From the IMG/VR virus record IMGVR_UViG_3300008050_000005, positions 1 through 43,885 of that record: 43,885 nucleotides of DNA. The stretch is one strand, 5' to 3'. This DNA comes from a virus. Under the pieces are notes generated by a model. The model was not told the origin of the DNA and made no database searches. It worked only from the letters and a program-made list of their open reading frames with translations. This document shows, piece after piece, positions 1,714 through 38,835 of the stretch (the stretch's first letter is position 1; each line of letters begins with the position of its first letter). Made by a program: the position numbers and the translations under genes.

Positions 1714-1723
1714 AGTAGCCCTT

Positions 1724-3686: not shown

Positions 3687-4215
3687 GACCGTGCTCCTTT
3701 AGCCAGTTCATTAGTTGTTGCGGAGAGACGATACCCACGGGTACTGTAATGCCTGCGGTACGTAGCGCATCGGTGCCCATGCTCACGCAGTCCTCAGAGA
3801 GTCGGACCCTGCCTCTACTAAAGAACAGGATGAGCCTGAACGTGGTGCCCCACACGGAGGCTACTACGGCCCCTCTATCCTTGGACTGCTCCCACTTTTT
3901 TAAGTCAACGGGCTTATCTGATTGGAACGTGAAGTGTACACGTCTTCCTGGGTACTTCTTCTTAAAGGTGTCAGCAGGCCAGTACTTATTTCTAGTGAAC
4001 ATTGGGTCTAGGACCACATCGTCGTACTCAATCAGTACATGGCTGATGGCTGATCGTGTGATCCACCGTATCAAGTGACTACCCAAGAGGTAGTAGCATA
4101 GGGCAGGCTCCCTGCGAATGAGCCGCAGTTTCCACCGCCAAGGGTAGTCCCAGAAATGCTTACGCATGCTCATGCCTTCGGCAAACCATAGTTTAAAATC
4201 GTATCGTAGAGTCAT
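3649..4215 (-). CDS. Candidate permuted NlpC/P60-fold protein (YiiX-like)
   Basis: The protein has 188 aa. A histidine in an ISHVLIEYDD strand (H59) precedes a cysteine in an SEDCVSMGTDALR helix (C143). The strand around VVLDPMF and the SVWGTTFRLI segment lie between them. The order His first and Cys later, on a helix start, is that of circularly permuted NlpC/P60 (papain-like) hydrolases, whose members cut peptides or amide bonds. The N-terminal 55 residues are very basic and tryptophan-rich (FWDYPWRWKLRLIRRE). If active it could serve in lysis or in cell-wall opening at entry. Neighbours are the RNA polymerase upstream and the portal cassette downstream. The family call is tentative. Confidence 0.55.
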   Translation of the reverse strand: MTLRYDFKLWFAEGMSMRKHFWDYPWRWKLRLIRREPALCYYLLGSHLIRWITRSAISHVLIEYDDVVLDPMFTRNKYWPADTFKKKYPGRRVHFTFQSDKPVDLKKWEQSKDRGAVVASVWGTTFRLILFFSRGRVRLSEDCVSMGTDALRTAGITVPVGIVSPQQLMNWLKEHGHACTAYTTTYKD

Positions 4216-13341: not shown

Positions 13342-14331
13342 TTACTTGTACAAGTCAGCTGGCACTTCAAGATAGTGCTTACGACTGACGGCTTCTGAAT
13401 GTCCCATCCACTTGGCTACCACGTAGCTCGGATAAGACTGATGCCACAGAACATCACGAGTTCTGCGGAATGTTTGGCAAGTTATTTTGTCGGTGATCCC
13501 CACTTGTTTTCTTATTGAATCCAGTACTTTCAAAATCATATTATGTTTATACCACATGGCGCTACAAAAGTCATCGTCTGCTACCGCTAAATCTCTTGAC
13601 AAAATGTCTTTCAACTCAGGCTCTATGCGAACGACCCTTGTCTTAGACTTGGAAGTGACGTGACCTACACGGTTCCGGATAGTTATCTTCCCGCCAGGTA
13701 GATCAACGTCACCCCACTTGAGGTTGAAGGCTTCCATCTTGCGGAGTCCAGCGTAGAAGAGTAAGCCGACTAAAGACTTATACGCTCCCGCCTCGTCCAC
13801 GATAGCTCGTCCCTCCTCCTCGGATAGTATTCGGTGCTCGACATCACGAGTCGGAGCTGTCCCTGAAACATGATCGAACGGATTGAATTTTAAACGATCC
13901 TCCTTGAGCGCCCAACTAAAGATGACCTTCGCCACCCTGATATGCTTGCACACTGTGCTCTCTGACATCTTGCCTGCCAGCCAGAGCCTGAAGTCAGCAG
14001 CGCCTACGCGACTGAAGCAGTCCAAGGCACGGTCACCGAAGTACTCAGTGAGCAGGCTGAATGTCTGCTGCTGGATAGCCTTAGTGCTCGGCTGCAAGGC
14101 GCTGTCCCTTCGGATGAAGTACTGCGTCTTCCACTCGGATAGTTTTGGCGAGGATAACATATCGGTGAGCCTTGGATACAACTCGAATTCGATTGCGAGC
14201 TCCTGTACCCTAGCCTCCGCACCCCGCTTGGATAGATGCCTCTTGTGTCCTAGTGACTTGCGTCGGCGCTTGCCACGCGAGTCAGTCCAGCCCACTTGCC
14301 AGTAGTCTCCGTTACTTGATAGTCGTATCAT
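13342..14331 (-). CDS. int: Tyrosine-type site-specific integrase
   Basis: The protein has 329 aa. There is an N-terminal arm-binding-like strand region, a SAM-like core-binding domain (about 60-155), then the catalytic domain. Catalytic residues seen are R197 in YAGLRKME, a lysine in SKSKTRVV (about 228-230), R289 in QTFRRT, H311 in WMGHS and nucleophile Y320 in KHYLEV. The residue three before R289, normally His, is Gln286. The C-terminal VVAKWMGHSEAVSRKHYLEVPADLYK reminds me of planctomycete integrases, a hint at the host from memory only. It would integrate the genome into the host chromosome. No excisionase or attP could be placed. The ATG overlaps the upstream stop (ATGA). Confidence 0.93.
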   Translation of the reverse strand: MIRLSSNGDYWQVGWTDSRGKRRRKSLGHKRHLSKRGAEARVQELAIEFELYPRLTDMLSSPKLSEWKTQYFIRRDSALQPSTKAIQQQTFSLLTEYFGDRALDCFSRVGAADFRLWLAGKMSESTVCKHIRVAKVIFSWALKEDRLKFNPFDHVSGTAPTRDVEHRILSEEEGRAIVDEAGAYKSLVGLLFYAGLRKMEAFNLKWGDVDLPGGKITIRNRVGHVTSKSKTRVVRIEPELKDILSRDLAVADDDFCSAMWYKHNMILKVLDSIRKQVGITDKITCQTFRRTRDVLWHQSYPSYVVAKWMGHSEAVSRKHYLEVPADLYK

Positions 14332-14868: not shown

Positions 14869-14984
14869 AATATTCTCCAGTTGGGGATAGTTTGGTGTAT
14901 AATCTCAGATGTCCTTCACTTGGTAGGTGAAAGATTGAGCCCCTAGATGGACGGTTTCCGCCTGAGTCTAGGGGCTCTTTATAT
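14869..14984. promoter_or_regulatory. Intergenic structure: strong hairpin and plus-strand TATAAT
   Basis: The gap holds a perfect 11-bp inverted repeat, GAGCCCCTAGA (14937-14947) and TCTAGGGGCTC (14967-14977), with CGG/CCG pairing inside the loop. A smaller TTCAC/GTGAA stem-loop lies at about 14914-14930. On the minus strand the large hairpin immediately follows the stop of gene 14985-15269, as a 3' end or processing structure. On the plus strand a TATAAT (14898-14903) precedes both hairpins, and TTTATAT follows the large one. This would suit a short antisense transcript of about 70 nt ending at a terminator. No good -35 box is visible. Which strand is used is undecided. Confidence 0.5.
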
Positions 14985-15498: not shown

Positions 15499-16037
15499 TG
15501 GCGTGCCTCCTTAATTGCTTCGTCTATGCTACTGGCACAGGTTTCTATATGGTCAAGTAGCCACTGCGGGTCGCGGTGTTCATGCGGTTCCCACACGCTG
15601 ATGCTTGGGTGGGCAACATCACCACCATCACCACTCTCGGCTTCGTCTCTAAGAATATCGATGACTTCATCAGTCGATAGTTCCTCCCAATCGGATAGGT
15701 ACTCGCCTATTGCGATGTCAACGCCACGAGGGATAGGGCGTATCTCCTCGATGCCTTCAATCCACACCAATCTCTCGCCACTTCCTAGCCAATAACATCC
15801 ACCCTCATCTTCTGTGGCTTCCAACGATTCATTACCCTCATCATTCTCACCCAAACACAAACCTTCTCCAAAAAAGTGATTGAGAAGAAACTTATTGTCC
15901 ATATCGGTAAGGTTCTGTGGGTCTGAATCGGGGAGCAGTTCCCCAAAAAAACCTGAACAGGGGTTATCCATCTCCCAAGTTTCAGTGTACTCATTGTCCC
16001 CATCTCGTATTCCAATCGTAATCTTAAAGTGTTTCAT
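15495..16037 (-). CDS. Highly acidic early protein, unknown
   Basis: The protein has 180 aa with a very large excess of Asp and Glu, notably GENDEGNESLEATEDEGG and DWEELSTDEVIDILRDEAESGDGGD. It begins with a beta strand (MKHFKITIGIRDG). No family is recognised. Proteins this acidic in phage early regions are sometimes DNA mimics that block restriction or other DNA-binding host enzymes, as T7 Ocr does. That is only an inference from composition and position. It overlaps both neighbours by four bases, so translation is coupled. Confidence 0.75.
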   Translation of the reverse strand: MKHFKITIGIRDGDNEYTETWEMDNPCSGFFGELLPDSDPQNLTDMDNKFLLNHFFGEGLCLGENDEGNESLEATEDEGGCYWLGSGERLVWIEGIEEIRPIPRGVDIAIGEYLSDWEELSTDEVIDILRDEAESGDGGDVAHPSISVWEPHEHRDPQWLLDHIETCASSIDEAIKEARQ

Positions 16038-16222
16038 TGTACGTCCTCCTTCGGGGCGAGGCTATAGTAGACACCTTCCACCCATTCCATCCACCCATCC
16101 AGCCAATCGCTGTGGTCGTATGGTCTCCAGCACTCCGAATGGTCGCAATTTATTTCCGCTAGCACTTCGGAGAGTGTCCACTCACGCACCTCATTGGTTT
16201 CTTTACATAGTACTTTCATCAT
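16034..16222 (-). CDS. Small tryptophan-rich acidic early protein
   Basis: The protein has 62 aa with six tryptophans in its second half (ECWRPYDHSDWLDGWMEWVEGVYYSLAP) and two cysteines. AAGGAGG lies eight bases before the ATG. Two consecutive ATG codons make the exact first residue uncertain by one codon. No family is recognised. It is coupled to the acidic 180-aa protein by a four-base overlap. Confidence 0.7.
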   Translation of the reverse strand: MMKVLCKETNEVREWTLSEVLAEINCDHSECWRPYDHSDWLDGWMEWVEGVYYSLAPKEDVQ

Positions 16223-16225
16223 TGG

Positions 16226-17026
16226 TCAATCCTCCTTATGGATTAGTTTACTAAATTTGTGCCAATCAATATACGCATTGATGGCGTCTACTAGGTTGTT
16301 ATATTCTGCATAGCAGTCATCGTGTAGGTGGATAGAATTTCCACACTCAGGGTCGGATGCCCAACAGTAGTCATGCACAAAGGCTTGCATATTCATGCTG
16401 TACAACTCCTCGCCTTTTGTGTCACCTTCGATAAGGTGGTAGGTGAAGTAGTCGATGAGCGCCTCGTTCTGCTGCCTGTCGTTGTATTCCATGACCCCGC
16501 CCGACCCAACTGTTGTCATGCGGGATAGCATATTTCCGAGTCCAGCGGTCGTTCTGAGTTCGGCTCTGACCCAACGTGGGACTTGTAGGCGCTCCCACAA
16601 ATCAGCTTTGTACAGGGAAACCCACGAGTCAAAGACTATGTCGTGGTTGATATTCGACCACGATCCATCTCTCAACGGATACCAGCACCAACTGTCATCC
16701 GAGAGGACAGGGATATCGGGCTCTGCGAATTTGCTACAGCGAGTGTAGGGTGTCCACTCCATGTCCTCACCCTTCAAGGCGTTCTCGCTGGCTACCTCTT
16801 TGCCCCACGCATCGTAGTATTCCTTATCGTCATCTTCATCGGGGAACGCCTCACTGACGATGCCATGGGCTTGAGCAAATTTCCAAGGGTCAAGTAGATA
16901 CTCTGCGACCTCTTCGAGGGTCAGTTGATAGCGTACTGTCATGTCATCGGCAGAGTCCTCCCCGATGGGGTCATCGGTTCGGATAATGCTCCAGTTGCTG
17001 TGGATGTAATAGTGGTAATGTCTCAT
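16226..17026 (-). CDS. Large acidic early protein, unknown
   Basis: The protein has 266 aa when started at ATG 17026-17024, chosen because GGAGGAGGT lies about five bases upstream and the ATG overlaps the previous stop (ATGA). A longer frame with five more codons starts inside that ribosome site. It is rich in Asp, Glu, Trp and Tyr, with a clearly negative charge. Its first 30 residues (MRHYHYYIHSNWSIIRTDDPIGEDSADD) resemble the N-terminus of the preceding gene's product (MKHYYYVLPDYRILATDDEV...ESADD), so the two share a duplicated N-terminal module. No family or enzyme motif is recognised. Its size and position make it a notable unexplained early gene. Confidence 0.78.
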   Translation of the reverse strand: MRHYHYYIHSNWSIIRTDDPIGEDSADDMTVRYQLTLEEVAEYLLDPWKFAQAHGIVSEAFPDEDDDKEYYDAWGKEVASENALKGEDMEWTPYTRCSKFAEPDIPVLSDDSWCWYPLRDGSWSNINHDIVFDSWVSLYKADLWERLQVPRWVRAELRTTAGLGNMLSRMTTVGSGGVMEYNDRQQNEALIDYFTYHLIEGDTKGEELYSMNMQAFVHDYCWASDPECGNSIHLHDDCYAEYNNLVDAINAYIDWHKFSKLIHKED

Positions 17027-17370
17027 TGTACCTCCTCCCATGATGGGATAATAATTTTGGATTGGGAAATAATGTACTCATGTGGCGCTTCTACGATCTT
17101 GAAACCAGTGAACGTGGCGATGCCGTATTCAAAGGTAAAGTTGATTGGGTCACGCCTATAGAATTCAAGTTCAGTCTCACCTTTGAGTTGACCAGTGTCT
17201 GTGTGAATGGGTGACGCGTACTCACTGTCAAGTTCACACCTGACCTCGCCCTCCTTGAAACTGTCTATTGGATCACCATCATCGGCAGACTCTCGGATAA
17301 GTTCAGCGGGGACTTCGTCATCGGTGGCAAGGATTCTGTAATCGGGAAGGACATAGTAGTAGTGTTTCAT
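17023..17370 (-). CDS. Acidic early protein sharing its N-terminus with the next gene
   Basis: The protein has 115 aa and is beta-rich and acidic. The N-terminal MKHYYYVLPDYRILATDDEV and the ESADDGDPI segment recur in the adjacent 266-aa product, which suggests duplication of a small domain. Starts and stops overlap neighbours by four bases on both sides. The function is unknown. Confidence 0.73.
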   Translation of the reverse strand: MKHYYYVLPDYRILATDDEVPAELIRESADDGDPIDSFKEGEVRCELDSEYASPIHTDTGQLKGETELEFYRRDPINFTFEYGIATFTGFKIVEAPHEYIISQSKIIIPSWEEVQ

Positions 17371-17633
17371 GCTGTCTCCTTACAGGTGCAAGCCTCTATG
17401 TATTCACAGCACTCACCGCAATACTCACCTTCTAGAATTAAAAAGTGCCGTCTAGCCTCGCACTGAGCCTCGGCTAGCGTACACGCCCCACCCTGCGTGT
17501 CAGCACCGTACACGGTGAAGACGTCTTCAGGTACAAAGGCGTCTCCCTCGAAGTGTCCAACGTGGAAGGTTGCAGAACCATTCCACGATATGAACTGCTC
17601 GGTGTTTTCTACGTTCTCAAAGTAAATCATCAT
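17367..17633 (-). CDS. Small early protein with cysteine-rich tail
   Basis: The protein has 88 aa. The C-terminal 20 residues hold five cysteines (YCGECCEYIEACTC), with two more at QGGACTLAEAQCEA, which could form a zinc-binding knuckle. The first half looks like a beta sandwich (QFISWNGSATFHVGHFEGDAFVPEDVFTVYG). No family is recognised. It is coupled to the next gene by a four-base overlap. Confidence 0.7.
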   Translation of the reverse strand: MMIYFENVENTEQFISWNGSATFHVGHFEGDAFVPEDVFTVYGADTQGGACTLAEAQCEARRHFLILEGEYCGECCEYIEACTCKETA

Positions 17634-17637
17634 TGGT

Positions 17638-17976
17638 TTATCCTCCTTGGATAGTTGTGCTGAAATTCAGTTCAGCGGGGTTAAAGTAGTACCAAACTTT
17701 AGGCACTAGCAGGATGACCGTCCACGCTAGACAGCCAGCCGTAATGCCTGTTATTGAATTCCACAGTGTAGGGTCACCTAACGCTCCGAGGAAATCAGAT
17801 AGGGCGTTGGATAGACTTGCCACGAGCGCACAGCCTACGGCTATACGCCATGCAATGGCTCGCGCTTCGGGGTCGAGTTTCAGTCCAGCAATAAACGCCA
17901 CGAGCAGTATGCCACATACGACAATTCCGTTGTCAATAAATCCGAAGAGAAAGCCGTTTCTAATTAGTTCAAACAT
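17638..17976 (-). CDS. Small integral membrane protein of the early region
   Basis: The protein has 112 aa when started at ATG 17976-17974, because AGGAGG lies six bases upstream. A longer frame reading into the upstream gene lacks that support. Three hydrophobic segments are seen: IVVCGILLVAFIAGL, AIAWRIAVGCALVASL and ITGITAGCLAWTVILLV. An early membrane protein could act in superinfection exclusion or alter host membrane functions. A holin role is less likely from its early position. The last ten codons (LNFSTTIQGG) and the stop are encoded by the same leader repeat that elsewhere is noncoding, so the reading frame runs into a regulatory element. Confidence 0.75.
   Translation of the reverse strand: MFELIRNGFLFGFIDNGIVVCGILLVAFIAGLKLDPEARAIAWRIAVGCALVASLSNALSDFLGALGDPTLWNSITGITAGCLAWTVILLVPKVWYYFNPAELNFSTTIQGG
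17641..17677 (-). repeat. Leader repeat, copy within the end of a gene
   Basis: This copy consists of the palindrome CTGAAATTCAG (17660-17670), then AACTATCC, then the ribosome site AAGGAGGA, reading toward lower coordinates. It matches the copies at 18814-18849 and 19341-19376 almost base for base, but here it doubles as the last codons of gene 17638-17976. It supplies the ribosome site of gene 17367-17633. Confidence 0.75.
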
Positions 17977-18184
17977 GGTCATCCTCCTCGGCAGATAGTT
18001 TCTCGTGCAAGGCTTTAAAATCGTCAAAAGTGTCAAAGACCTCTTGGTCGGATTTGGGATGGAATCCACCGAAAAGCCCACTCGCACAGTCCTCCTCACT
18101 TTCAAGTTGACCGCGAGCGCCTTGCCACTCCCACTCGTCTAAGGCTCTAAGTATTATGTTGCGTTCTAAATCTGTAAGTTTCAT
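17969..18184 (-). CDS. Small early protein, paralogue A (LERNI family)
   Basis: The protein has 71 aa. Its N-terminus MKLTDLERNIILRALDEW and its end HEKLSAEEDD closely parallel MNLTELERNILIHALEEW and QKLSGEEDDEW in the neighbouring gene 18205-18549. The two genes are therefore a tandem duplication. The helical, acidic protein has no recognised family. The ribosome site is part of the AACTATCC...AAGGAGGA leader motif. The stop overlaps the membrane-protein start by eight bases. Confidence 0.75.
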   Translation of the reverse strand: MKLTDLERNIILRALDEWEWQGARGQLESEEDCASGLFGGFHPKSDQEVFDTFDDFKALHEKLSAEEDDHV

Positions 18185-18204
18185 TGGTCATCCTCCTTGG
18201 ATAG

Positions 18205-18549
18205 TTAAGACTTCGATCTTGTTAATGCCGTGTACACAACGTGTGAACAATGGGCTACGTAGAGGGCTGGAGACAGCGCCCATATCCCGATGAGGAATAG
18301 CACCTTCATCGGATTGGATAGTCGGTCGAACAGGCAAGGCTCGTCTACTGGAACGCCGTACATTGGACTCCCATAAGCATTACCCCACTCGTCATCCTCC
18401 TCTCCAGATAGTTTCTGTATCAGGATGAGGCTATCGCCTTGCTTCTCGAAGGTTGGCTCATCTTCGACAGGCTCTAAACCCTCTCCTCGGTCACACCACT
18501 CCTCTAGGGCGTGGATTAGTATGTTGCGTTCTAGTTCTGTAAGATTCAT
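18205..18549 (-). CDS. Small early protein, paralogue B extended by a membrane segment
   Basis: The protein has 114 aa. The first 55 residues are a paralogue of the 71-aa neighbour, which stops just after the shared KLS.EEDD sequence. Here the frame continues for about 60 residues, including a hydrophobic segment MKVLFLIGIWALSPALYVA. The simplest reading is a duplication followed by loss of the stop or by fusion to a membrane anchor. The ribosome site is part of the leader motif (18556-18573). The function is unknown. Confidence 0.73.
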   Translation of the reverse strand: MNLTELERNILIHALEEWCDRGEGLEPVEDEPTFEKQGDSLILIQKLSGEEDDEWGNAYGSPMYGVPVDEPCLFDRLSNPMKVLFLIGIWALSPALYVAHCSHVVYTALTRSKS

Positions 18550-18806
18550 TGGTCATCCTCCTTTTGGATAGTTACTACTAGCCTTCTGGTCACGCCTTCA
18601 GGGTCACCTTGGACAAGAACCTCTAGGTCAATCAGCGGAAAGTCACCGTTGTCGTTCTCATCGACTATGGCATCCTCAACTGTGATCACATCGAAGTGGG
18701 AAAGCAGTTGCTGCTGGATGCCTTCGATAATTGTCGCTATCTCGGCACGCATCTCGGTAGGGACATCGCCCCACCACTTGGTTGTTGTTTGAATGTTGTT
18801 GCTCAT
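18546..18806 (-). CDS. Small early protein, unknown
   Basis: The protein has 86 aa. A helix (PTEMRAEIATIIEGIQQQLLSHF) is followed by a beta-rich acidic half (FPLIDLEVLVQGDPEGVTRRLVVTIQKED). No family is recognised. Its ATG lies just downstream of the leader repeat at 18814-18849, which supplies the ribosome site. Its stop overlaps the next start (ATGA). Confidence 0.73.
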   Translation of the reverse strand: MSNNIQTTTKWWGDVPTEMRAEIATIIEGIQQQLLSHFDVITVEDAIVDENDNGDFPLIDLEVLVQGDPEGVTRRLVVTIQKEDDQ

Positions 18807-18813
18807 TGTTTTA

Positions 18814-18849
18814 TCCTCCTTGGATAGTTGTGCTGAAATTCAGTCCAGC
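18814..18849 (-). repeat. Leader repeat with palindrome CTGAAATTCAG
   Basis: On the sense strand the palindrome (18833-18843) is preceded by GCTGGA and followed by CACAACTATCC and AAGGAGGA, then the ATG of gene 18546-18806. The same block occurs at 17641-17677 and 19341-19376, and parts (AACTATCC plus ribosome site) recur before several other early genes. It may be an operator, an mRNA element or a processing site. Confidence 0.75.
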
Positions 18850-18860
18850 GTCTGTTGCAT

Positions 18861-18912
18861 ATTATTATGCGGTGGATGGCACTCGCTAGAATGCCAACCG
18901 CCTCGCAATAAT
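18861..18912 (-). repeat. 52-bp hairpin, copy 1 of 3
   Basis: The 52-bp element has outer arms ATTATTA and CAATAAT, an inner arm GGATGGCACTC, a loop GCTA, and the opposite arm GAATGCCAACC. It lies eight bases beyond the stop of gene 18920-19333 and ahead of the next leader. The inner arm differs from the other copies but mostly retains pairing, so the structure rather than the sequence appears to be kept. It resembles in placement the RNase III processing hairpins of T7 early mRNA. There is no U-run to make it a classic terminator. Confidence 0.8.
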
Positions 18913-18919
18913 CAGCGTA

Positions 18920-19333
18920 TCAATAATCCTCGTGCGTGTCGGGTGGGCATAGGGTGTCGCGTCCCCACCAATAGAGGAAATCTACCTCGTCACTCGGTCG
19001 GTCGAGTTGTTCAAAGACCTTGTTTCGCAACGCCTCATCGCAATCGTACCAATCGCGTTGAAGGGTGATAGGTCTTCGGCTATACGCCTCGCCAACACAG
19101 GTTGGAGAGTGATTATCAGTCGTGTGGTAAACTTCCCCGCGAATCATCCTGTCCACCGTGTAGTACATGGCTAGTGCTGTGTAGACATTCGCCTTCTTGA
19201 TATGTGGTCGAGCCTCTACCGCAAGGTCATACACGTCTATGTCCATCCACTCATTGCATGGGTCATCGAAGTACTCGCGTACAGTCTCATCGCTGAGTTC
19301 GCCCATTGGTAATCCGTCTAAATTTACGCTCAT
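18920..19333 (-). CDS. Acidic early protein, unknown
   Basis: The protein has 137 aa and is acidic and helical (GELSDETVREYFDDPCNEWMDIDVYDLAVEA). It has a central basic-aromatic part (RPITLQRDWYDCDEAL) and ends FLYWWGRDTLCPPDTHEDY. No family is recognised. It is preceded by the leader repeat (19341-19376) and followed by a 52-bp hairpin, so it forms a self-contained expression unit. Confidence 0.73.
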   Translation of the reverse strand: MSVNLDGLPMGELSDETVREYFDDPCNEWMDIDVYDLAVEARPHIKKANVYTALAMYYTVDRMIRGEVYHTTDNHSPTCVGEAYSRRPITLQRDWYDCDEALRNKVFEQLDRPSDEVDFLYWWGRDTLCPPDTHEDY

Positions 19334-19340
19334 TATCGTA

Positions 19341-19376
19341 TCCTCCTTGGATAGTTGTGCTGAATTTCAGTCCAGC
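19341..19376 (-). repeat. Leader repeat with palindrome CTGAATTTCAG
   Basis: This is the third copy of the leader block, with the palindrome at 19360-19370 carrying one central base change that keeps it symmetrical. AACTATCC and AAGGAGGA follow before the ATG of gene 18920-19333. Confidence 0.75.
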
Positions 19377-19388
19377 AACTGTTCGCAT

Positions 19389-19440
19389 ATTATTATGCGG
19401 TGGTAGGCACTCCGAAGAGTGCCCACCGCCTCGTAATAAT
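19389..19440 (-). repeat. 52-bp hairpin, copy 2 of 3
   Basis: The arms are ATTATTATGCGGTGG and CCGCCTCGTAATAAT, the inner arm is GGTAGGCACTC with partner GAGTGCCCACC, and the loop is CGAA. It overlaps the stop codon of gene 19440-19745 by one base. It is the same length as copies 1 and 3, with changes in the arm and a wholly different loop. Confidence 0.82.
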
Positions 19441-19745
19441 TATTGCTGAAGTTTAAACGTGCCATCTACCACAAGTGTCCACTCGCCATCATCCCTGTGT
19501 AGGTGGCTCACAAAGCACGTAGGCTCTAGCGTATGCTCTTGCACTAGGATCTGTGCAAGAGCCATACCCGCGCCGAAGTGGACAGGCACGACCATGCGTG
19601 TAGAGCCTACTTGCATGGTGATCAGCACATGATCCACTGACTGCACCAAATCGTCCGTGAGCGGGATTGGGTGGTCACCACGAGCAAGTCGCAGTAGTTG
19701 AGAGTTAGTGAGCGGTCGCTCGGTGATGGGTAATGTGTTATTCAT
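19440..19745 (-). CDS. Small early protein, unknown
   Basis: The protein has 101 aa. It begins MNNTLPITERPLTNSQLLRLARGDHPIPL, a helix and a proline-rich turn, then a beta-rich part (HVLITMQVGSTRMVVPVHFG, ending WTLVVDGTFKLQQ). No family is recognised. The ribosome site AAGGAGGA precedes the ATG. Hairpin copy 3 lies upstream and copy 2 begins at its stop. Confidence 0.72.
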   Translation of the reverse strand: MNNTLPITERPLTNSQLLRLARGDHPIPLTDDLVQSVDHVLITMQVGSTRMVVPVHFGAGMALAQILVQEHTLEPTCFVSHLHRDDGEWTLVVDGTFKLQQ

Positions 19746-19774
19746 GGTGTATCCTCCTTGTGGATATTTCGCAC

Positions 19775-19826
19775 ATTATTATGCGGTGGATGGCACTCTC
19801 GCGAGTGCCATCCGCCTCGTAATAAT
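19775..19826 (-). repeat. 52-bp hairpin, copy 3 of 3
   Basis: This is the most perfect copy: GGATGGCACTC, loop TCGC, GAGTGCCATCC, flanked by ATTATTA and TAATAAT outer arms. It gives nearly continuous pairing over 24 positions with one mismatch and wobbles. It overlaps the stop codon of gene 19826-20032 by one base. Confidence 0.85.
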
Positions 19827-20032
19827 TATTGCTGTGATTGAATTATCTTCCACACGCCATCGACATAATCGGACGGCACATGGTCAGCGTCATCGGTATC
19901 GTAGTGGTACAGGGTGTCGAGATAGGTTTGCAAATCCTCTTTGCTGTCAAAGGTCAGACCCTGCAGCACAAGTTCATTATATTCCTGTGCTTGATGTAGG
20001 GTAGGTATCCAATTTGTTTGTGTATGCTTCAT
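19826..20032 (-). CDS. Small early protein, unknown
   Basis: The protein has 68 aa starting MKHTQTNWIPTLHQAQEYNEL. The start at 20032 was chosen because AAGGAG lies upstream of it. A longer frame reaching into gene 20061-20465 lacks a ribosome site and looks out of frame with its neighbour. The protein is helical with an acidic middle (YHYDTDDADHVPSDY). No family is recognised. Confidence 0.7.
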   Translation of the reverse strand: MKHTQTNWIPTLHQAQEYNELVLQGLTFDSKEDLQTYLDTLYHYDTDDADHVPSDYVDGVWKIIQSQQ

Positions 20033-20060: not shown

Positions 20061-20465
20061 TTAGTACGATAAAAACCATTCGGTCTTGGGCGTCTTGGTT
20101 GTGAACGGTTCAAACACAGCCCAACCGCTGCCCTCAAACACCGTGCCGTCACAGTGGTGGAAGTGCTCATCCACCCATGGATCGTAGTGGACACGTTCCA
20201 TGAGTACGCCTTGTCTCTCCCAAGCACGGCTATGTACAAAGATGCCTTCCACCTTCGCCGTCACCTCGCGATGTCCGGTCTTGCGAATCCGCGCTGCTCC
20301 CGCTGCAGTTGTGATGGGGTCAGCGCACCGAAGTGTCACCCAATCGCATTGACACGCGACCTTCCACTTCCCCTCGACCTTGATCGTCACCGACCATGTG
20401 CCCTTGTTGATATTCTTGTAGACCCGCACAAGGTCTCCCTCTTTTACTGTTAATTTGTGTGTCAT
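20061..20465 (-). CDS. First gene of the early region, unknown
   Basis: The protein has 134 aa and is beta-rich. It starts with an SH3/KOW-like stretch (VKEGDLVRVYKNINKGTWSVTIKVEGKWKV) and continues with VTLRCADPITTAAGAARIRKTGHREVTAKVEGIFVH, ending in a Trp/Phe-rich part. A basic, beta-barrel-like early protein could bind nucleic acid or an enzyme of the host. No family is recognised. A ribosome site (CAGGAGA) lies six bases before the ATG. It is the first gene after the noncoding control region. Confidence 0.75.
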   Translation of the reverse strand: MTHKLTVKEGDLVRVYKNINKGTWSVTIKVEGKWKVACQCDWVTLRCADPITTAAGAARIRKTGHREVTAKVEGIFVHSRAWERQGVLMERVHYDPWVDEHFHHCDGTVFEGSGWAVFEPFTTKTPKTEWFLSY

Positions 20466-20485
20466 AATGTCTCCTGGTAGGTTAC

Positions 20486-20503
20486 GTCAGCACCATTGCT
20501 GAC
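20486..20503. promoter_or_regulatory. Dyad GTCAGCA-CCAT-TGCTGAC before the first early gene
   Basis: A perfect 7-bp inverted repeat with a four-base spacer, 21 bases before the ATG of gene 20061-20465. It lies in the 5' leader, as either an operator or an mRNA hairpin just upstream of the ribosome site. Confidence 0.6.
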
Positions 20504-20510
20504 TATGTCT

Positions 20511-20527
20511 ATTAGTAGCATACTAAT
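20511..20527. promoter_or_regulatory. Operator-like dyad ATTAGTAGCATACTAAT
   Basis: A perfect 7-bp inverted repeat around a three-base spacer (ATTAGTA/TACTAAT), seven bases from the neighbouring dyad. It is AT-rich with half-sites of repressor size and spacing, and poorly stable as an RNA hairpin, so a protein binding site is more likely. On the sense strand a weak TTGCAC lies a few bases upstream. Confidence 0.6.
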
Positions 20528-20628
20528 CGGCATAGTGCAAGGGATATGTTCAGCCAATTTGGATCAATTATTCAGATTGAAAAGGGTAGGTCAGATACAT
20601 CGGATAAAACATTTAAATCCTCAGCATT

Positions 20629-20766
20629 TGACGCCCACCGAATCGTCCCTTCTTGCTACGACATTCAGAGCCACAGCCCTGCCACAAATGACGCCCAAAT
20701 CGCTGTTTAATGACACCCCACCCCCCATCGCAATAGTCTCAAATAGACTCACACAGGCGCTGACAC
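20629..20766. repeat. GGGYGTCA repeats in the control region
   Basis: On the sense strand GGGCGTCA occurs at 20629-20636 and 20689-20696 and GGGTGTCA at 20711-20718. Related GCGTGTCA lies at about 20761-20768 and GGGCGTCC at 20797-20804. Spacing is irregular. Short iterated sites in the main noncoding region could bind a replication or packaging protein, or be chance in a GC-skewed stretch. Confidence 0.45.
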
Positions 20767-20807
20767 GCATGGGGGCGCGGGGGGGTTGGCGACACTGGAC
20801 GCCCTAA

Positions 20808-20837
20808 CGTATAGGGCTTCACATGTTTCTGTGACAA
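20808..20837 (-). promoter_or_regulatory. Candidate sigma-70-type early promoter
   Basis: On the minus strand TTGTCA (20837-20832) and TATACG (20813-20808) are separated by 18 bases, pointing at the early genes about 340 bp downstream. The -10 overlaps a short dyad GCCCTA/TAGGGC (20801-20817). Host-recognised early promoters are expected in this region because the phage polymerase gene is itself expressed from it. Confidence 0.4.
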
Positions 20838-20863
20838 CATTTGTGACCCATGGGTTACTACTT

Positions 20864-20935
20864 TCAGCACACAGCTGTTGCTGCTAATTCTTCCCCAAAT
20901 ATGACGAGTAATCTACTCCAGTAAAGTAATCTCAT
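20864..20935 (-). CDS. Possible 23-residue peptide in the control region
   Basis: ATG at 20935-20933 has AGGAG six bases upstream, and the frame ends at TGA 20866-20864. The peptide starts MRLLYWSRLLVIFGEE and is amphipathic-hydrophobic. The good ribosome site makes it worth noting. It would be the last late gene or a leader peptide. The coding status is uncertain. Confidence 0.3.
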   Translation of the reverse strand: MRLLYWSRLLVIFGEELAATAVC

Positions 20936-21008
20936 TCTCTTCTCCTAGTACTTGTTTGGGCCCGGTAAATTCTCACAGTTATCCCGGTAGCGGGGTCGTA
21001 GAGAGTCC

Positions 21009-21940: not shown

Positions 21941-23641
21941 CTAGTGTTTGAACCAGCGTGGTTCTCCTGCGGGAACAAGTCCCAGCTCTTTGTAGTGGGC
22001 TCGAAGCCGCTCCTCCTGCACTCTTTCTCGCTGACGGTCAGCCGAGACTGATTGGTCTTGGTTGAGGACATCGGTCCACTGCTTGACGCACATCGCCAGG
22101 GCTTCGACCTCGTCCTCGTGTCGCAGGCAGTTACGGTCCCTGGTGATGGTCACCATCTGCCGTTGGAGTTCTTGGTTTGCGGCAACGTCTGGGTGCATGA
22201 TCAGGCGGTGCTGATTCATCACGGGCTCTAGCGATTGTATGATTCTTACTTCCTTTTGCCCACTCGTGTGGACACCGTCTATCGACGCCCCCCAGCCATG
22301 TGGCAAGTCTTCCGTTTCTCCCTGCCGAACACGGTGCTTCATGAGGACGGGCTCTATGAGAGAGACAAACATGTCCATGCCAAAGTTGCTTTCCACGAAA
22401 ATTTCTCGCACCATGTGTTTTTTTGCCAGCACGACGAGATGCTCTAGCACGTCGGGCGAGTACCCACCGTCTAGACCTCCAACGTCTTTTATGAACAGGT
22501 TTCCGTTTAGATGTGAGACTATCGCGTAGGCGGTTTTGTCTGCGCCTCTCCCGGCCGGGTCGATCCACATCTTGCTTCCCGTATACTTTCCCCAATCTTG
22601 CGAGTACATGATTGGCGAGTAGAATCCATCCGTTCCGAACCCAAGCGATGGGATTTCTTCGCACCGTGTCGTTCCTCCTCTATCATTTGTCTGCCCCCAT
22701 GTAATGGTTAGTGGTGCCTCCTCGCGAGCCACCGGGAATACTATTAGATCTTTTAATTGGAGTGGGTACTGAACGCCACCACCAAGGTGAGTTAGCATCA
22801 TGTACTGCATCATGAATGTGGAGCGCCCCTCAGACGCTTCACGTTCCACCAGCTCGTCAGTTGTGAATCTTTCCGGCCATACAGGCTCCCCAATCTCCTC
22901 GCCCTCTGCGAGCCTCTGAGCCAGCTCTGGGGCAAGGTCATCAGTAAGCTCGTCGGCGCTTGGTAATCGGCATGGCCAACATCTAAAGACGTAGCCGCCC
23001 TCGACTAGTTTATCGTAGAGTGATTCTTTGTGGTGAGGCGTGCCGAGCATGATAATGTCGCCGCCGGGAATGAGAATGTTTTCGAATTCTTTTACTTGCT
23101 CACGGAGACGGTCACGCATCTCAATGGTCAGCGTGTTCTCGCTGGTTTCACAGTCATCGCCAAGGATGATGCTCGCTCGGCGTCCAGTGATTTGGCCAGT
23201 GACGGACGCTGCCGCGAAGGATGGCGTTCGATCATTTTCTGCTGGGCCGACATCGAACATTACCGCACTATCTCGCTGACCACCTCGCCTGTCGGGGCTG
23301 AGATGTTGGAGCCATGGAACCTGTGCAATCCATCGCCGAATCATGAACAGTGAGTCCTTCGAGTTTTTCTCCGATTTAGAAACAAGAAGGATTCTCTCGT
23401 TGGGATTCACGAACAATCGCCACAGGCAATACGCTAGCGTAACCCAAGTTTTCGACGCTCCACGGAACGCCCGTACCCCACGCCTTCGTGGTCCATCCTG
23501 TAGCCAATGTCCTATCTCCTTCTGGTGTAGGGCAAACGCTGGGAGCCCCAGCTCTTGCCACAGCTCCTCACCGAAAAACGAAAAGTCTTCAGCCAGCTTT
23601 CCAATGTACTCTTCTAGCTGTTTGTTTTCGTTTACTGGCAT
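21941..23641 (-). CDS. terL: Terminase large subunit, T7 gp19-like
   Basis: The protein has 566 aa, the usual size. The N-terminal ATPase has a Walker A-like RAFRGASKTW (57-66), Walker B IILGDD (158-163) and GTPHHKESLYDKL after the coupling motif. The C-terminal RNase H-fold nuclease begins at WIDPAGRGADKTAYAIV with D361, then IFVESNFG and a late acidic segment. It pumps DNA into the prohead through the portal and cuts concatemers, together with the small subunit at 24646-24921. It overlaps the metallophosphoesterase gene by ten bases. Confidence 0.95.
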   Translation of the reverse strand: MPVNENKQLEEYIGKLAEDFSFFGEELWQELGLPAFALHQKEIGHWLQDGPRRRGVRAFRGASKTWVTLAYCLWRLFVNPNERILLVSKSEKNSKDSLFMIRRWIAQVPWLQHLSPDRRGGQRDSAVMFDVGPAENDRTPSFAAASVTGQITGRRASIILGDDCETSENTLTIEMRDRLREQVKEFENILIPGGDIIMLGTPHHKESLYDKLVEGGYVFRCWPCRLPSADELTDDLAPELAQRLAEGEEIGEPVWPERFTTDELVEREASEGRSTFMMQYMMLTHLGGGVQYPLQLKDLIVFPVAREEAPLTITWGQTNDRGGTTRCEEIPSLGFGTDGFYSPIMYSQDWGKYTGSKMWIDPAGRGADKTAYAIVSHLNGNLFIKDVGGLDGGYSPDVLEHLVVLAKKHMVREIFVESNFGMDMFVSLIEPVLMKHRVRQGETEDLPHGWGASIDGVHTSGQKEVRIIQSLEPVMNQHRLIMHPDVAANQELQRQMVTITRDRNCLRHEDEVEALAMCVKQWTDVLNQDQSVSADRQRERVQEERLRAHYKELGLVPAGEPRWFKH

Positions 23642-24645: not shown

Positions 24646-24921
24646 TTACGCTGTCGCGGCATCATCCATATCGTCTAACGCTGGAAGATTCATGCCACGT
24701 TTTCGCCATTCCTCTATTATGTTTGCAACGGGGCTGTCCCCTGTCGCTGTTGTGGTGATGCCGCAGTCTTTTAGACGTTGGCGTATTACATTTAGATCCG
24801 CAGCTGTTGCCTCGATGCGTACAGACTCACCGTCCTTGGTGAGTGTTTCTCTGCCTTCTCTTAATATTTTTAAAAGTTGCTGATCATAAAGATCGGCAAT
24901 GTCGTCTAGGTTTGTGCTCAT
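24646..24921 (-). CDS. terS: Terminase small subunit (DNA maturase A), T7 gp18-like
   Basis: The protein has 91 aa, helical and acidic. It contains the segment SVRIEATAADLNVIRQRLKDCGI, characteristic of T7-group small terminases (..r....psaadLn.ar.fLk..gi). The gene follows the internal virion protein gene, as gene 18 follows genes 16 and 17 in T7, and precedes the large subunit with two genes in between. It would recognise the concatemer and assist the large subunit. It overlaps the stop of the giant internal protein by four bases. Confidence 0.85.
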   Translation of the reverse strand: MSTNLDDIADLYDQQLLKILREGRETLTKDGESVRIEATAADLNVIRQRLKDCGITTTATGDSPVANIIEEWRKRGMNLPALDDMDDAATA

Positions 24922-27900
24922 GGGTTGACCTTATATCCTTTTAACGTCTCGATTTCTTTTCTCATCCTGCTCACTGTACTCGACTCCTCGCCACGCTCCT
25001 CGATTGCCAGCGGAAGGTGTCGCTCTACGTCTTGAACATTTAAGTCTACGTCAAGGTTTCTGTACTCTGGCGAGTTTGCTAATGCGTAGTCGTGTGATAG
25101 TCCGTAGAACTTAGAGATGATATCGCTGACCATTGTTTGCTGGATCGTGTGTCCCGTTTTAGGGTCCCGCGCGACTTTTCCATGCCTAATATACTCATGG
25201 TGCATGTTACCACTCGGAAGCAAATAAGCTTCGAGAGTTTGCCGTAATGTTAAGTCATCGATTTTGATAGTTCCGTCGCCGACTATCTTCTTCATGTAAT
25301 GGAACACCGACCAATCGTAATCTTCCGGGCCAGCAACATCGCGTAGCTCTATCCCATTGTAAACCGCGTAAGACTCGGCATGGAATGGGTAGTCAAGTTT
25401 TTCTAGCGCGATCATTAGCTCGTCGGTAGATACCGACTGTATGCGAATTGGTGAGACAATATTGATTGCCGTTTGCCACCAGCCGTCGTCCGGCTGAAGC
25501 CGAGATACAGGCTCGCCAAGGATGGTGTACTGAGGAGGCGCCTCGCCGCCGCCCCACACGGTTGTGGCTTTAATATTATCCATGATCTTCCTCGTGTCAG
25601 CCACAACGGGATCAGTCGCATAGCTCATGGCTCGTTGCAGAGAGTTCCATGGAATCAGTGTGCCGAGGAATTGCTTTTGCCAACGTAGAACACCAGAATC
25701 TTCTGGGTCTGGGTTTGCAAATGCGTCGGTGAGTGCGGTTAATGATTTGATGAACATCTTCTCATTAAGCTGCTTGGTTAACGCATAGAACATCACGGCC
25801 AAAAGATTTGTTTTGTCCTGCTCTCGTATGGTTGGATCCGCTTCTAGTACCTCAAAGCCATCCGCGACGATTGCAAGAACCGTTGCGAAGGGGTCCATCT
25901 TTCGGAACTGGTATCGCTTTTCTCCAATCTTTACCGAGTAGGGCATGCCGCCATTTTGTGACCATATTTTACGTTTGTGAGAGTTGTATGGGCCAGCGCC
26001 TTGGATCATATCGTTTTCGTACCAGTACCACGCCAGCCCCATGAGCGCCATGCCTGATGCCTGACGACCGCGAGCTTCCATCATTCGTCGAGGATCTCCG
26101 CTTCGAAGATCTTCCATATGCTTTCGGTGGTATCGCCAGAGCTCGGCCTCTTCGGGCAGGCCATACTGCTGACTTCGTTTTACCGATGCCTGCCGCCTCC
26201 TAAGCGCGGCCAACTCGGACGAGTGTAGGTCGCCATCTTCAATTTCATCGATGTGCTTGCCATATTTCGTTTCTAGGTGATCTGTATACGCCTTAAGCCG
26301 AACCTCAAATTCTGGCGTGCGGCCACCTCTTAGGTTGTTTAACTTCTGCGCAACCTCGGACACTATTGTTGTTGGGGACATACCGAACGCTTGCTCCATT
26401 AGGTTCATTGGCGTTCTATAGAACGGAATAAGAATTCTTCCGATACCCCATGTGTTTTGGTCTAAGAACTTTTGGAACCCTGATGCGTTTGGACCAAGGT
26501 CACCCTGGAACACAGGCCGCGTTGCGTAGTCCTCAACATGCCTCACGAGTTCGTTGTGGCGGTGCGTCCTGTGGGTATTAACTTTCTCTGCAACAGCCAT
26601 ACCCTTTTCGTAGTCATCGTCTATTTTCGAAATCTTAGGGTCATTTATTGCCTCATGAATTAGCGTCTGCTCGTTGCGGAGGTGTCCGTCTTTGATGGTG
26701 TTTTGAATTTCTTTATCCACCATCTCGGAAACCGTATCGTGCATCTTCGATTTGTATCGAAGTACCTGGAACCTATTTGCATTTTCTAGCTTCCCGCCAG
26801 GTCGTTGTGCCTTTTTAACAAGTTTAGCCATATTATCTGTATACGATTTATCAGCAAGTGCGGTGCGTCCTGCCATCTGCCGGAAGAACTCATCGATTGT
26901 CATGATCGCTCGACTTGGGTGCCGAACCAAGACCCCACCAATGACATGATTGAGAACCCATTTTCCCGCTTTTCCCGCGAAGCTGCCTGGCTCCCTGTCG
27001 GTCCATACCGCTTTTCGTGCGAAGCTAGCGTCATTGAGCTCACGTCCGGGCATGAGCTGGCCCTCTTCTTTTGCCGCCGTTTTCAAGGCGTATTCGAGGG
27101 CGGTTGTCATGTTACCAATGTTATGCCTAAGATTTGTAAGTGTCTGCGCCGCAACCTCAAAGTTGCCCGTGGCCACAGACGTCGCGAATTTTCCTGCTCC
27201 TGTAATACCCAGCGTGAGTGCAGGAGAAATTGCCGCAAGCCCCGTGTACGTGGCCGGGCCGGAGAGCAACCAGTTTGTGTAAATTTCTTGAACGACTCCA
27301 CGGAACTTTCCACCTATTTGTTTATTGGAGCTCTTAATAACTTCAGAGATGAGGCCAAGGTCGGTCAGGTCATTTGGGTCAAGTCCCCGAAGTCCGTTAG
27401 CTATTTCTTGAACGCTGGCCGAGTCACGTCCAATTGATTTCAAGAACTCCGCAGCCTTTGTCGCGTCTGTTAGCTCTTTCTCAGTTGGAAGTTTTAGTGG
27501 CGCTCCCCATGCCTGTAGATCTTGCCCTGCTTGGGCACGCTTTAGTTGTGCGATTGCTGCGACGTATTGATAGGCGATAGCCTCCCTTTGTAGTAACGCC
27601 TTGTCAACGATTGACCCGGAGCTGTCGGCAGCTTTCTGCGCTTGCTGAAGCTTCTTTAGTCTATTCTGCAACATGAAGTTAGCGACGAACACTTTCACAG
27701 CGCCTTCGCCATGTTCGCGAGCGTCCGTTATCATGACCTCGGCTACCACTTGCTCGCTAGGTACCTCGTGCACAGCTCCTAATCGGGCGTACATGTTAAC
27801 CGCGCGTTTTGATATGATCTCATTGCTCAGTGGCGGGATGATATCCTCGTCCATAAGCTTACGAGTGAGGTCGCCATAGGCGGCGGCAACTTTAAGAATC

Positions 27901-30900
27901 TCGTGAGGGTCGTCCGGCGAAATGCCAAAGGTTGATCGTTTAGGATCCAACGACGGTCGTAATCCCGACCTGTCTGGATTCCTTTTTAATAGCTCTGGGT
28001 CCCGCATCCGTGCTGTTCCGAGGATGTCGTCCTCTTGAATCATGTCATTAAGATCTTCGCCATCTTTGAGCCCTTGCTTGACCCTGGCCACAACCTTATC
28101 CCAGCCAATCGCTGGCATGTACTTTCCTGGTGCGTATCGAATGGGTAAGTCTGTTCTCGTCATTAGACTAGCAAAGAACTTTGCCACGTCAGGTTTAATT
28201 TGGCGAGCGAGCGGCGAACCCTGGACGTCTTTATACACGTCACGAATTTGGGCCGCTATGTAAGAGAGAGCATTCGCTTGGCCAGCCGCCAGCCCTTCTG
28301 GATTCGCGATGTAACTCTCCCAATTTCTGGCGAAGTTTTCCATGGCGGCCTCGTCCCAGTTACCATCGACAACGCCGAAGGCATCCTCCATGGCTTTGAG
28401 TTGCTTCTTATTTCCACCAGCCAGTAGTTGTGCGTGTAGTGCGTGACCGAGTTCGTGAACTGCGGTTGACGCATCGGGAGCGGTTATTCCTCTGATGAAG
28501 GCGACGCCGGATTCGGTGTCGATGAGGGCTTCGCCTCGTTCGTCTTGCCGGAGCCGCTGCTCCCCAGGCCGTCCATCAGCACCCGAAACTCCTTCGTCGA
28601 GTTCCCGGCCTTTGCCAGTTCCATGCGTTCCTTCAGGCGTTTCGTGCCAGGGTCTTGAGCCCCATGCATCTTCAGACTTCGTTGGTACAGGTGTTCTATC
28701 ATCGCTTAATATCCTATCATAATCGTCGCGTGTTATGGTGATGGTATCGAAGGCTTCTACTTCAGCCCTTGCTACTGGGTCTAATTCGACCAATTCTCGT
28801 TGTAAATCAGCAAATTCTTCGAATTTTCTTTCCATATGTGCTATAGCATCGTCGGTTTTTCCAATAAGACCACTTGCCGCGTCGTCGAATTCTGGTACGT
28901 AGGCTGATCGAATGCCGATAACCTTATTTCCACCAGCACGAGTGGCGCCACGTTCTGCTTCATTTATTGTTTGAGCTCCGAGCCCTTTGGACTTAAGAAA
29001 GGCCACGACCTTCGCAACCTCTTCGGGCGTAACGCCACTGTCAAAGTAAATTTCTACGCCCGGTCTGGCGTTGGGGTTACTCTTGAGAATGTTTCCTTCT
29101 GATGAGGAAAGGTCAAGGACCAAACTTCCCATCATGGCATCCTGATCGCCATCCTTGCCCAATTGAGCCATGGTCCTTCTCGCAGATCCAAAGTCTGGAA
29201 CTTGGTCCGTTTCGGACACTGTCTTGAATTTAGGCTTTCCATCTTTGCCAAGAATAGGATTACCCTCGGCGTCAAGTTGTGGAGCTCTTCCTGGCTTTTG
29301 AGTGTTTGAGTATGTAACCTCAACGTGTAAAGATGCTTCACCCTCGCCACCCGAATACCTATAATTCTCTCCAACGCTGTACGCAGTTGCGGTTGGGTCG
29401 TCGCCAATGATCGTGCGAGCTGTTGTCTGAGCGGCAGCAACTTTTGTTGGGTCCTGCACGCCTGCCTCCATGACAACTCGTTGTGGACGTATAAGATCTG
29501 ACTCTAGGTCGAACGAGCCGCCTTCGCCGTCAAGGTTTGTCCAGTTCTTCTTTGTCCATTTTTCTTTTTCCATGAACCAGCCAACCGCCTGGAGATCGTC
29601 TGCTGACATCCCTAGACGTTTTGCTGCGTTCTCGAAGACCTCTTGTCCAAATCCCATAGCAGAACCAGCTGTATCTTTTGTTGGGTCCGTGCCTTTGATG
29701 TAGCTGCCTTGCACAGCCCCTTCAGCGTTTGGTGGAATTGGCTTACGGCCAGCCAATCTTTCCAAAAATCGAGCAGCCCAAACATCAATGGTTGCTTGGT
29801 TGTCACGTCCTAAAAGATTCGCTGCAAAGTTTACAGCTTTCACACCTTTGCCTTGTACACCCTTTCGAGTGCTGTACCAGTGCCCCGTCAACGTGTCCAT
29901 AGCGTTGCCAGTATTAAAACCAAACTTTGTAAAACCTTCGTCGGCGAGATCTTTCACCGCTGAGTCTACTAAGCCATCTTTTCCAATAACTTTATTGCCT
30001 GCTTCAACCCATTCTTTAAACGTGCCACCAGCTTGGCGATGCTTTCCGTACGCCTCAAGGACGTCATCAAATGCGCCGCGTGTGTAGTGGTGCATGACAT
30101 TGGTCATGTTTGCGAAGTTTGCTTTCACCTTTGTCTGTGGGCTTAGAGCTCCAAGTAGTTCTCCTACAAGATCTCTGTAAACTCCCCACTCTCTGCCGAG
30201 CCTCTGCCGCATAGTGGCGTACCAATTTGCGTGACCAAGAATGGTCTTTGCAACTTCATCGCCAGCTGCCGCTCGTGCTCGTACCTCAAGAACTTCTTTT
30301 TCTAGCTTACCGCCCAAGTCTTTAACACGCCGTTTTCGCTGTGGGCTGCCGACTGCGTAGGCTTTGCCGTTTCTGTTTCGGTGGAATGTATATGGTATTT
30401 TTTTGTATTTTACCTTTAGAACAGCGTTGCCACTGTCGTCCACAACTAGCTTGCCGTCGGCGTCTACTTTTTGTTTGATGGATGCAATTTCAAGGGGTTG
30501 CCATTCGCTTTTTGGGTGTCTCGCCATAGAATCAGCGACCTGTGATTTTATACTATTGCTGGTTTCTTCATCTAGGCCGTGGGCACTAATCGCATCGTCA
30601 ACAACTTGGCTATCTCTTTTGTTAAGTTTGGCAACACCTTTCGATCTTTCTCCGCGTGCTGTCCCCATGATGCGTTTGTCTTGGTGTAACGACATCACGG
30701 TTTCTACGCCATGCCCATCTACTGTTTTTACTGTGTTAGCTGCAAGGTCTATTTCAGAGCTTGTTGATTTGGACAAAATAAATAATGTATCTATTTCCCC
30801 TTTGCCCATCAGGAAGCCTGAAACAGCCTGCTCCCCAGCAAGTTGTGGGATGTCGTTATCGTGTGCAACAAGTGTGCCCATTGCAGTAATTAGATCCTCT

Positions 30901-34124: not shown

Positions 34125-34685
34125 TTAAAACCCCATCGTCGATGACCAAGGTATTGCCCCGGACCCGCCTTTTTGGGCTCGTGTCATCGAGAGGCCTGTT
34201 GAGAGCCCTGACATCCCGCCGCTGAGTCCAGCCAGCATCTCGTTTTGACCCTGCGCCAGTGCTGCATTTATATTTTGTTCGTAGCCTGCCATGTTCTCGG
34301 TGTTCAAGTTCTTATAGTTAATGTTCATCATCGTCATCTTGTTCGCAGTATTTTCGTTTATGATTGAAAGATTTTGAGCTTCATCTATGTCGGCTTGCGT
34401 TAGCACTCTCTCACCTGACCCGGATCCTGTTGAAAGACCGCCAGATGCTTGTGCAACTCTAATCCTGCCCCTAACCTCGGACGCTCGTCTCATGGTTTTT
34501 AACGACTCTGCGTCACGAGCCGCAAGTGTTTGTTTTTGCATAACACCTCGACGCTCTATTATAGAATCCCTACGCATCTCAGCATACTTTTTGTTGGTCA
34601 TCATTGACCGCTTGACAGCTTTGTTCTGTTGCGAGGCGCCCATCACTGACGTAACCGCACCGAGTGCCATCATTTCCATGCCCAT
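34125..34685 (-). CDS. Internal virion protein, T7 gp14-like
   Basis: The protein has 186 aa. It starts with a small hydrophobic Ala/Gly segment (MMALGAVTSVMGASQQNKAVKRS) and continues with a long charged helix (EMRRDSIIERRGVMQKQTLAARDAESLKTMRRASEVRGRIRVAQAS). The RVAQASGGL.TGSGS type sequence and an N-rich, methionine-rich helix follow, the pattern of gp14 proteins in T7-group phages. It would sit in the outer membrane or envelope part of the ejection channel. It lies one base from the gp15-like gene. Confidence 0.82.
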   Translation of the reverse strand: MGMEMMALGAVTSVMGASQQNKAVKRSMMTNKKYAEMRRDSIIERRGVMQKQTLAARDAESLKTMRRASEVRGRIRVAQASGGLSTGSGSGERVLTQADIDEAQNLSIINENTANKMTMMNINYKNLNTENMAGYEQNINAALAQGQNEMLAGLSGGMSGLSTGLSMTRAQKGGSGAIPWSSTMGF

Positions 34686-34688
34686 GGG

Positions 34689-38832: not shown

Positions 38833-38835
38833 GGG

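Follow-up and report, generated by a model that had tools for sequence, protein, structure and literature searches.

Three related hairpins between early genes of a T7-like phage as candidate intercistronic RNA signals

The phage and its early gene cluster

The DNA analysed here (the window, meaning the whole stretch at its full length) is a virus record of 43,885 bases with a 111-bp direct repeat at its ends. PHROGs annotation places all of its genes on the minus strand, with tail proteins, a helicase and a primase-like protein annotated in addition to the genes listed in Table 1. Because of its single-subunit RNA polymerase, its T7-type head-tail, tail and terminase genes, its one-strand gene arrangement and its end repeat, the window is a T7-like phage, and its polymerase gene adjoins the structural genes. 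A tyrosine integrase coexists with the T7-like polymerase, which suggests a temperate life style. Amid the late genes lies a single ORF of 2426 aa (24918-32198), which takes up about one sixth of the genome.

A gene cluster that we regard as early from its gene order starts below a 543-nt gap (20466-21008) and heads toward lower coordinates. Its first gene (20061-20465) belongs to the mycobacteriophage L5 gp82 family (PF25735, E 2e-14), and two adjacent genes further along, 17969-18184 and 18205-18549, are paralogues (39% over 69 aa) with similar leaders. The gap contains TTGCAC-17-TACTAA (20540-20512), a candidate host promoter with a close counterpart in the related viral contig L005; the consensus promoter scan does not list it. 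Also in this gap between late and early genes is a palindrome around GTAACCCATGGGTCAC (20840-20864), possibly a genome-end, att or regulatory site, with like palindromes in the same place in the viral contigs L005 (~12823), L014 (847-862) and L007 (16403-16423 and 16521-16541). The AACCCATGGG motif also surrounds the start codon (GTAACCC ATG GG) of two late genes, at 34674-34698 and 38821-38845. A further gap of 116 nt (14869-14984) holds a strong hairpin, GAGCCCCTAGA...TCTAGGGGCTC, and then a second stem, CTTTCAC...GTGAAGG; these stems may be a terminator of the early cluster.

Table 1. Genes, hairpins and leader modules of the window
Feature	Position	Strand	Description
Head-tail adaptor	1724-3319	-	PHROGs
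Single-subunit RNA polymerase	4232-6652	-	PHROGs
Integrase	13342-14331	-	PHROGs
Terminase	21941-23641	-	PHROGs
Major head protein	42941-43813	-	PHROGs
Early ORF, 68 aa	19826..20032	-	no family match; ends in hairpin copy 3
Early ORF, 101 aa	19440..19745	-	no family or phage match; flanked by hairpins 3 and 2
Early ORF, 137 aa	18920..19333	-	no family or phage match; flanked by hairpins 2 and 1
Early ORF, 86 aa	18546..18806	-	no family match; downstream of hairpin 1
Hairpin copy 1	18861..18912	-	sense loop UAGC; begins 7 nt past TGA of gene 18920-19333
Hairpin copy 2	19389..19440	-	sense loop C(UUCG)G; first base is last of TAA, gene 19440-19745
Hairpin copy 3	19775..19826	-	sense loop C(GCGA)G; first base is last of TAA, gene 19826-20032
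Small stem GCUGGA-CUGAAU-UUCAGC	18832..18849	-	repeat and RNA fold
Small stem GCUGGA-CUGAAA-UUCAGC	19359..19376	-	repeat and RNA fold
Small stem GCUGAA-CUGAAU-UUCAGC	17659..17676	-	without 52-nt hairpin; within 3' end of gene 17638-17976
Shine-Dalgarno module AACTATCCAAGGAGGAT	19340..19356	-	before gene 18920-19333
Shine-Dalgarno module AACTATCCAAGGAGGAT	18813..18829	-	before gene 18546-18806
Shine-Dalgarno module AACTATCCAAGGAGGAT	18190..18206	-	before gene 17969-18184; no hairpin
Shine-Dalgarno module AACTATCCAAGGAGGAT	17640..17656	-	before gene 17367-17633
Shine-Dalgarno variant ATCCACAAGGAGGAT	19751..19765	-	before gene 19440-19745
Shine-Dalgarno variant ATCCAAAAGGAGGAT	18555..18569	-	before gene 18205-18549
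Shine-Dalgarno variant ATCCATAAGGAGGAT	16229..16243	-	before gene 16034-16222

Hairpins and leader modules between the early genes

Between early genes two and five, a 52-nt hairpin occupies each of the three 80-113-nt gaps of the early cluster 20032-18806. The initial annotation had reported three copies of this length at the positions in Table 1, two of them overlapping a stop codon by one base, and both statements hold, with bases 19440 and 19826 ending TAA stops. Its placement of the copies among early gene units was likewise borne out, each filling part of the gap from a stop codon to the ribosome-binding site that follows. What it had missed was the coding strand, together with the remainder of a repeated leader. 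Every gene here is encoded on the minus strand, so the transcript corresponds to the reverse complement of the letters first read. The tetraloops do all differ, as had been noted, but on the sense strand they read UAGC, UUCG and GCGA rather than GCTA, CGAA and TCGC. The outer arms described as ATTATTA...TAATAAT are general to the copies, except that the right arm of copy 1 is CAATAAT. From the end of the hairpin to the next start codon the distance is 29, 54 or 55 nt; the register follows the stop codon, not the start codon.

The repeat family spans 67 nt, with 76-87% identity among the copies. The predicted sense fold comprises, from the base upward, seven AU-rich outer pairs, a C-A mismatch, a G-C pair, an A-G mismatch, two G-C pairs, a second C-A mismatch, an 11-bp upper stem and the tetraloop, and the middle mismatches (C-A, A-G, C-A) are identical in all three copies. 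Folding energies of the sense RNA are -22.7, -29.1 and -29.8 kcal/mol for copies 1, 2 and 3 (z -3.8, -7.3 and -7.3), with none of 200 shuffles as stable, and two of the three hairpin loci are among the three most stable 52-nt stretches of the genome in a 4-nt-step scan of both strands. Plus-strand folds are similar or better (-21.7, -31.3 and -36.3 kcal/mol); the antisense of copies 2 and 3 is the more stable because two fixed C-A mismatches become G-U there. The hairpins are real, repeated, non-coding and far from chance. A covariance model, run with filters off as well, found no fourth copy in the window, and Rfam gave no match to the window at gathering score. The hairpin sequence is new.

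Variation among the copies is concentrated in the upper half, where 9 of 22 columns differ, versus 1 of 30 below (10 of 52 in all; Fisher P 0.001); with the loop excluded, 5 of 18 upper columns are variable (P 0.02). The initial annotation had seen partly compensating changes as a mark of selection for structure. Both members of pair columns 20/41 and 21/40 do change, though the two bases at 20/41 form a U-U mismatch in copy 1. In the covariation analysis that had been proposed, 96 of 500 shuffles equalled the observed score, and three copies are too few to prove covariation. Hints of selection for structure come from the sense strand. The UUCG and GCGA loops, both closed by C-G, are of the hyperstable UNCG and GNRA types, whereas none of the antisense loops is of either type. 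Additionally, single-side changes to G-U occur at pair columns 11/50 and 26/35, and these wobble changes between copies pair in the sense RNA only.

The hairpin (three copies) is part of a combinatorial leader, together with an 18-nt small stem (three copies, consensus GCUGRACUGAAWUUCAGC) and a Shine-Dalgarno module (seven copies). The last of these, AACTATCCAAGGAGGAT, has complementary AUCC and GGAU arms, and is found four times in exact form and three times with a 2-nt longer spacer. ATCC..GGAGGAT stands at 7 of the 51 gene leaders, all within 16229-19765, where chance would be expected to give 0.14 occurrences of the longer-spacer form and 0.12 of the exact form (up to three mismatches) in the whole window. 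All three modules precede two genes (18920-19333 and 18546-18806), hairpin and Shine-Dalgarno module one (19440-19745), small stem and Shine-Dalgarno module one (17367-17633), and the Shine-Dalgarno module alone three (17969-18184, 18205-18549 and 16034-16222); every hairpin has a Shine-Dalgarno module downstream. The genes separated by hairpins show no kinship to each other, so the modules were not copied along with genes by tandem gene duplication. At copies 2 and 3, unrelated genes end in the same last codons and stop, CAG CAA TAA, and the last codons and stop of gene 17638-17976 are encoded by the small-stem and Shine-Dalgarno modules.

We considered the Shine-Dalgarno 16-mer as a marker of kinship and rejected it. 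It is present in more than 100 viral contigs, nearly all with a single copy, and no hairpin was found in those searched; a single copy before one conserved gene and without a hairpin indicates a common strong leader rather than kin. More than 100 viral contigs (L016-L134) carry the leader ACTATCCAAGGAGGATAAATTGGC, one copy in each, nearly always directly downstream of a TATAAT-like box and ahead of one conserved gene.

Relatives and the RNase III sites of T7 and T3

Searches with the hairpin sequence found nothing relevant in the viral contigs, phage and plasmid records and bacterial genomes searched, nor did searches of viral contigs with the junction of small stem and Shine-Dalgarno module. 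When 84,980 bacterial and archaeal genomes were scanned for the pattern, one chance match turned up, inside a coding gene. The first early gene and the RNA polymerase led to no usable relative. The terminase led to relatives L005-L009; the closest relative, L005/L011 (terminase 94%), stops inside the first early gene, before the hairpin region; the 94% terminase belongs to contig IMGVR_UViG_3300037574_000149.

The helicase led to the next relative, L014 (69%), in which the early region is covered and has neither a homologous hairpin nor such a hairpin series. This contig has its own stop-to-start leader, repeated about seven times within 1605-3884 (consensus CACCTACC-stem-AGAATCGAGAGCACAATG), which begins GCC TGA CCATCCCACCTACC and continues with a small stem and then AGAATCGAGAGCACAATG. 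Its sequence is unrelated to the window modules, and its layout is analogous. The L014 stem is GGCC/GGCC or GCCC/GGGC, one double change, with a covariation score that 7 of 500 shuffles reach. The sole L014 match to the window hairpin model, a weak one (11.8 bits, E 1.6), is a hairpin with a C(UUCG)G loop just past a TGA stop in the early region (4269-4305).

The early message of T7 is cut at five RNase III sites, and a single cut in the R1.1 RNA gives fragments of 47 and 13 nt (PMC4858673). The T3 sequence record marks five RNase III stem-loops in the early region (54, 50, 49, 51 and 40 nt). In one of them, R0.5, the first base is also the final base of a stop codon (CDS 901-1359, stem-loop 1359-1408), the same register as two of the window copies. 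The T7 record is without site annotation, and with its sites placed in the gaps by the general positions of R0.3-R1.3 and by sequence likeness to T3, the sites of both phages mostly fold into an AU-rich outer stem, an internal loop, a 9-11-bp upper stem and a small loop, and within each phage form a diverged repeat family.

The window hairpins resemble these sites (R0.3, R0.5, R1, R1.1 and R1.3) as diverged hairpins between the early-operon genes of a T7-type phage with a single-subunit RNA polymerase. They also share the general design, about 50 nt with an AU-rich outer stem, a distorted middle, a 9-11-bp upper stem and a small loop, and so fall within the layout of the T7 group (about 40-54 nt, with the outer stem separate). 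They differ in that the T7/T3 sites hold the cleavage site in an asymmetric internal loop, whereas the window hairpins have three isolated 1x1 mismatches. Sequence homology between the two is not detectable. A covariance model built on ten T7/T3 sites recovered four sites of K1F (E 8e-8 to 1e-3) but neither the window hairpins nor anything in gh-1 and phiKMV. In the reverse search, T7 R0.5, T7 R1.1 and T3 R0.5 appear at E 6-10 among nine sub-threshold matches, none of them significant singly and all biased in that any hairpin model favours hairpins. The window hairpins may work like R sites; these comparisons do not establish membership in the T7/T3 sequence family.

Processing or 3'-end protection and the alternatives

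We interpret the hairpins as probable intercistronic RNA signals of the processing or 3'-end-protecting kind in the early mRNA, and put the probability of this reading at about 0.5. The initial annotation had proposed this kind of role, and the position and architecture shared with the T3/T7 sites support it in part. Counting against it are the undetected homology to those sites, the isolated mismatches, the non-significant covariation, the more stable antisense folds of copies 2 and 3, and the lack of such a hairpin series in L014. The cleavage, protection and effect on translation that we infer would proceed as follows. The sense RNA of a polycistronic early mRNA would fold between a stop codon and the leader of the next gene, and host RNase III would probably cleave the stem at its distorted middle. 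Cleavage would leave a stable GC-rich hairpin, with a small and often hyperstable loop, at the 3' end of the upstream message, where it would hold off 3' exonucleases. A short leader bearing a strong Shine-Dalgarno module would open the downstream message.

The hairpin could also act uncut, as an element of translation or mRNA stability that insulates cistrons and heads a composite leader tuning initiation, in the manner of SAS/ESAS (Start-Associated Sequences and Extended SAS). In cluster K mycobacteriophages, the 13-bp SAS, GGGATAGGAGCCC, is found at ribosome-binding sites of non-structural genes, half of them with an upstream 17-bp inverted repeat, ESAS, whose pairing as RNA the authors considered improbable (PMC3203893); motifs of this kind are also present in cluster EF Microbacterium phages (PMC7302621). 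The window module AACTATCCAAGGAGGAT is likewise a motif that recurs at the ribosome-binding sites of some non-structural genes, its Shine-Dalgarno sequence flanked by complementary arms and in some cases joined by an upstream inverted repeat, but it reads AUCC-AAGGA-GGAU and does not carry the 13-bp SAS consensus. This parallel, the constant order of hairpin before Shine-Dalgarno module and the modular mix of leaders all favor an uncut element; the hairpins' variable distance to the start codon and registration to the stop instead, and a sequence unrelated to SAS/ESAS, speak against it, and we regard it as possible but doubtful. The upstream element of the window also differs from ESAS in having a stable RNA fold and a position set by the stop codon. 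The ESAS repeats do not support RNA pairing, for which reason Pope et al. favour binding at the DNA level. A DNA-level element here, either an operator (an inverted repeat bound by a phage or host protein) or a cruciform, would accord with that view, with the more stable plus-strand folds of copies 2 and 3 and with a lower stem that is almost invariant, mismatches included. Differences in the upper arms, however, mostly preserve pairing of the sense RNA, and the UNCG/GNRA loops of that strand and the strict placement downstream of stop codons also point away from DNA, which makes this explanation improbable.

Another possibility is that the repeats are recombination linkers, stop-to-start cassettes for the gain, loss and shuffling of unrelated early genes, with the fold secondary. 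The model for this is the PeSLs, promoter early stem-loop cassettes of T4-type phages for which such a role has been proposed (Arbiol 2010 and Comeau 2014, as described in papers citing them). These too are stem-loop cassettes repeated between small, variable early genes; the window cassette differs in having neither a promoter nor a terminator-like T-run, and in belonging to a T7-like phage. Such linkers would account for the lack of kinship among the genes between hairpins, the shared CAG CAA TAA endings, the gene end encoded by small-stem and Shine-Dalgarno modules, and the recurrence in L014 of a different module (GCC TGA CCATCCCACC...) about seven times amid mostly other gene content. Yet no rearrangement across a hairpin was seen, and in contrast to PeSLs the cassette has no conserved promoter (the promoter scan lists none in the hairpin gaps, and the region is not above chance), so we think this unlikely; linkers of this kind could at the same time have a role as RNA. 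We entertain, tentatively, the idea that the three-part RNA cassette of processing hairpin, small stem and Shine-Dalgarno mini-stem is the standard linker for unrelated early genes in this phage, with relatives following the same principle through linkers of unrelated sequence and each genome being uniform. Intrinsic terminators or attenuators would fit a stable hairpin past a stop codon, but neither strand has a T-run after the stem, which largely refutes them; the terminator scan reports none of the three hairpins, and a stop at the first would silence the remaining early operon, leaving this reading very improbable. Even less credible is mobile hairpin DNA (REP/MITE-like) spreading by itself. 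The repeats are short, imperfect palindromes, as such DNA would be, but there are only three, in one orientation and all in the stop-to-start gaps of consecutive genes, with none elsewhere in the phage and only the one in-gene match in the bacterial and archaeal scan.

Processing of the hairpins, if it takes place, would extend RNase III-type segmentation of early mRNA to a T7-like phage distant from T7, T3 and K1F, with a sequence and a stem design so different that repeated invention would be suggested. Two known kinds of element, T7 R sites and SAS/ESAS, come together in the composite leader, and its modules are small test constructs for the division of work between stop-proximal hairpins and structured Shine-Dalgarno modules. 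Should the linker idea hold, T7-like phages would have, in the cassette, a linker system that serves early-gene exchange at the level of RNA, and the composite leader gives a hint of how phages take in unrelated early genes while keeping expression intact.
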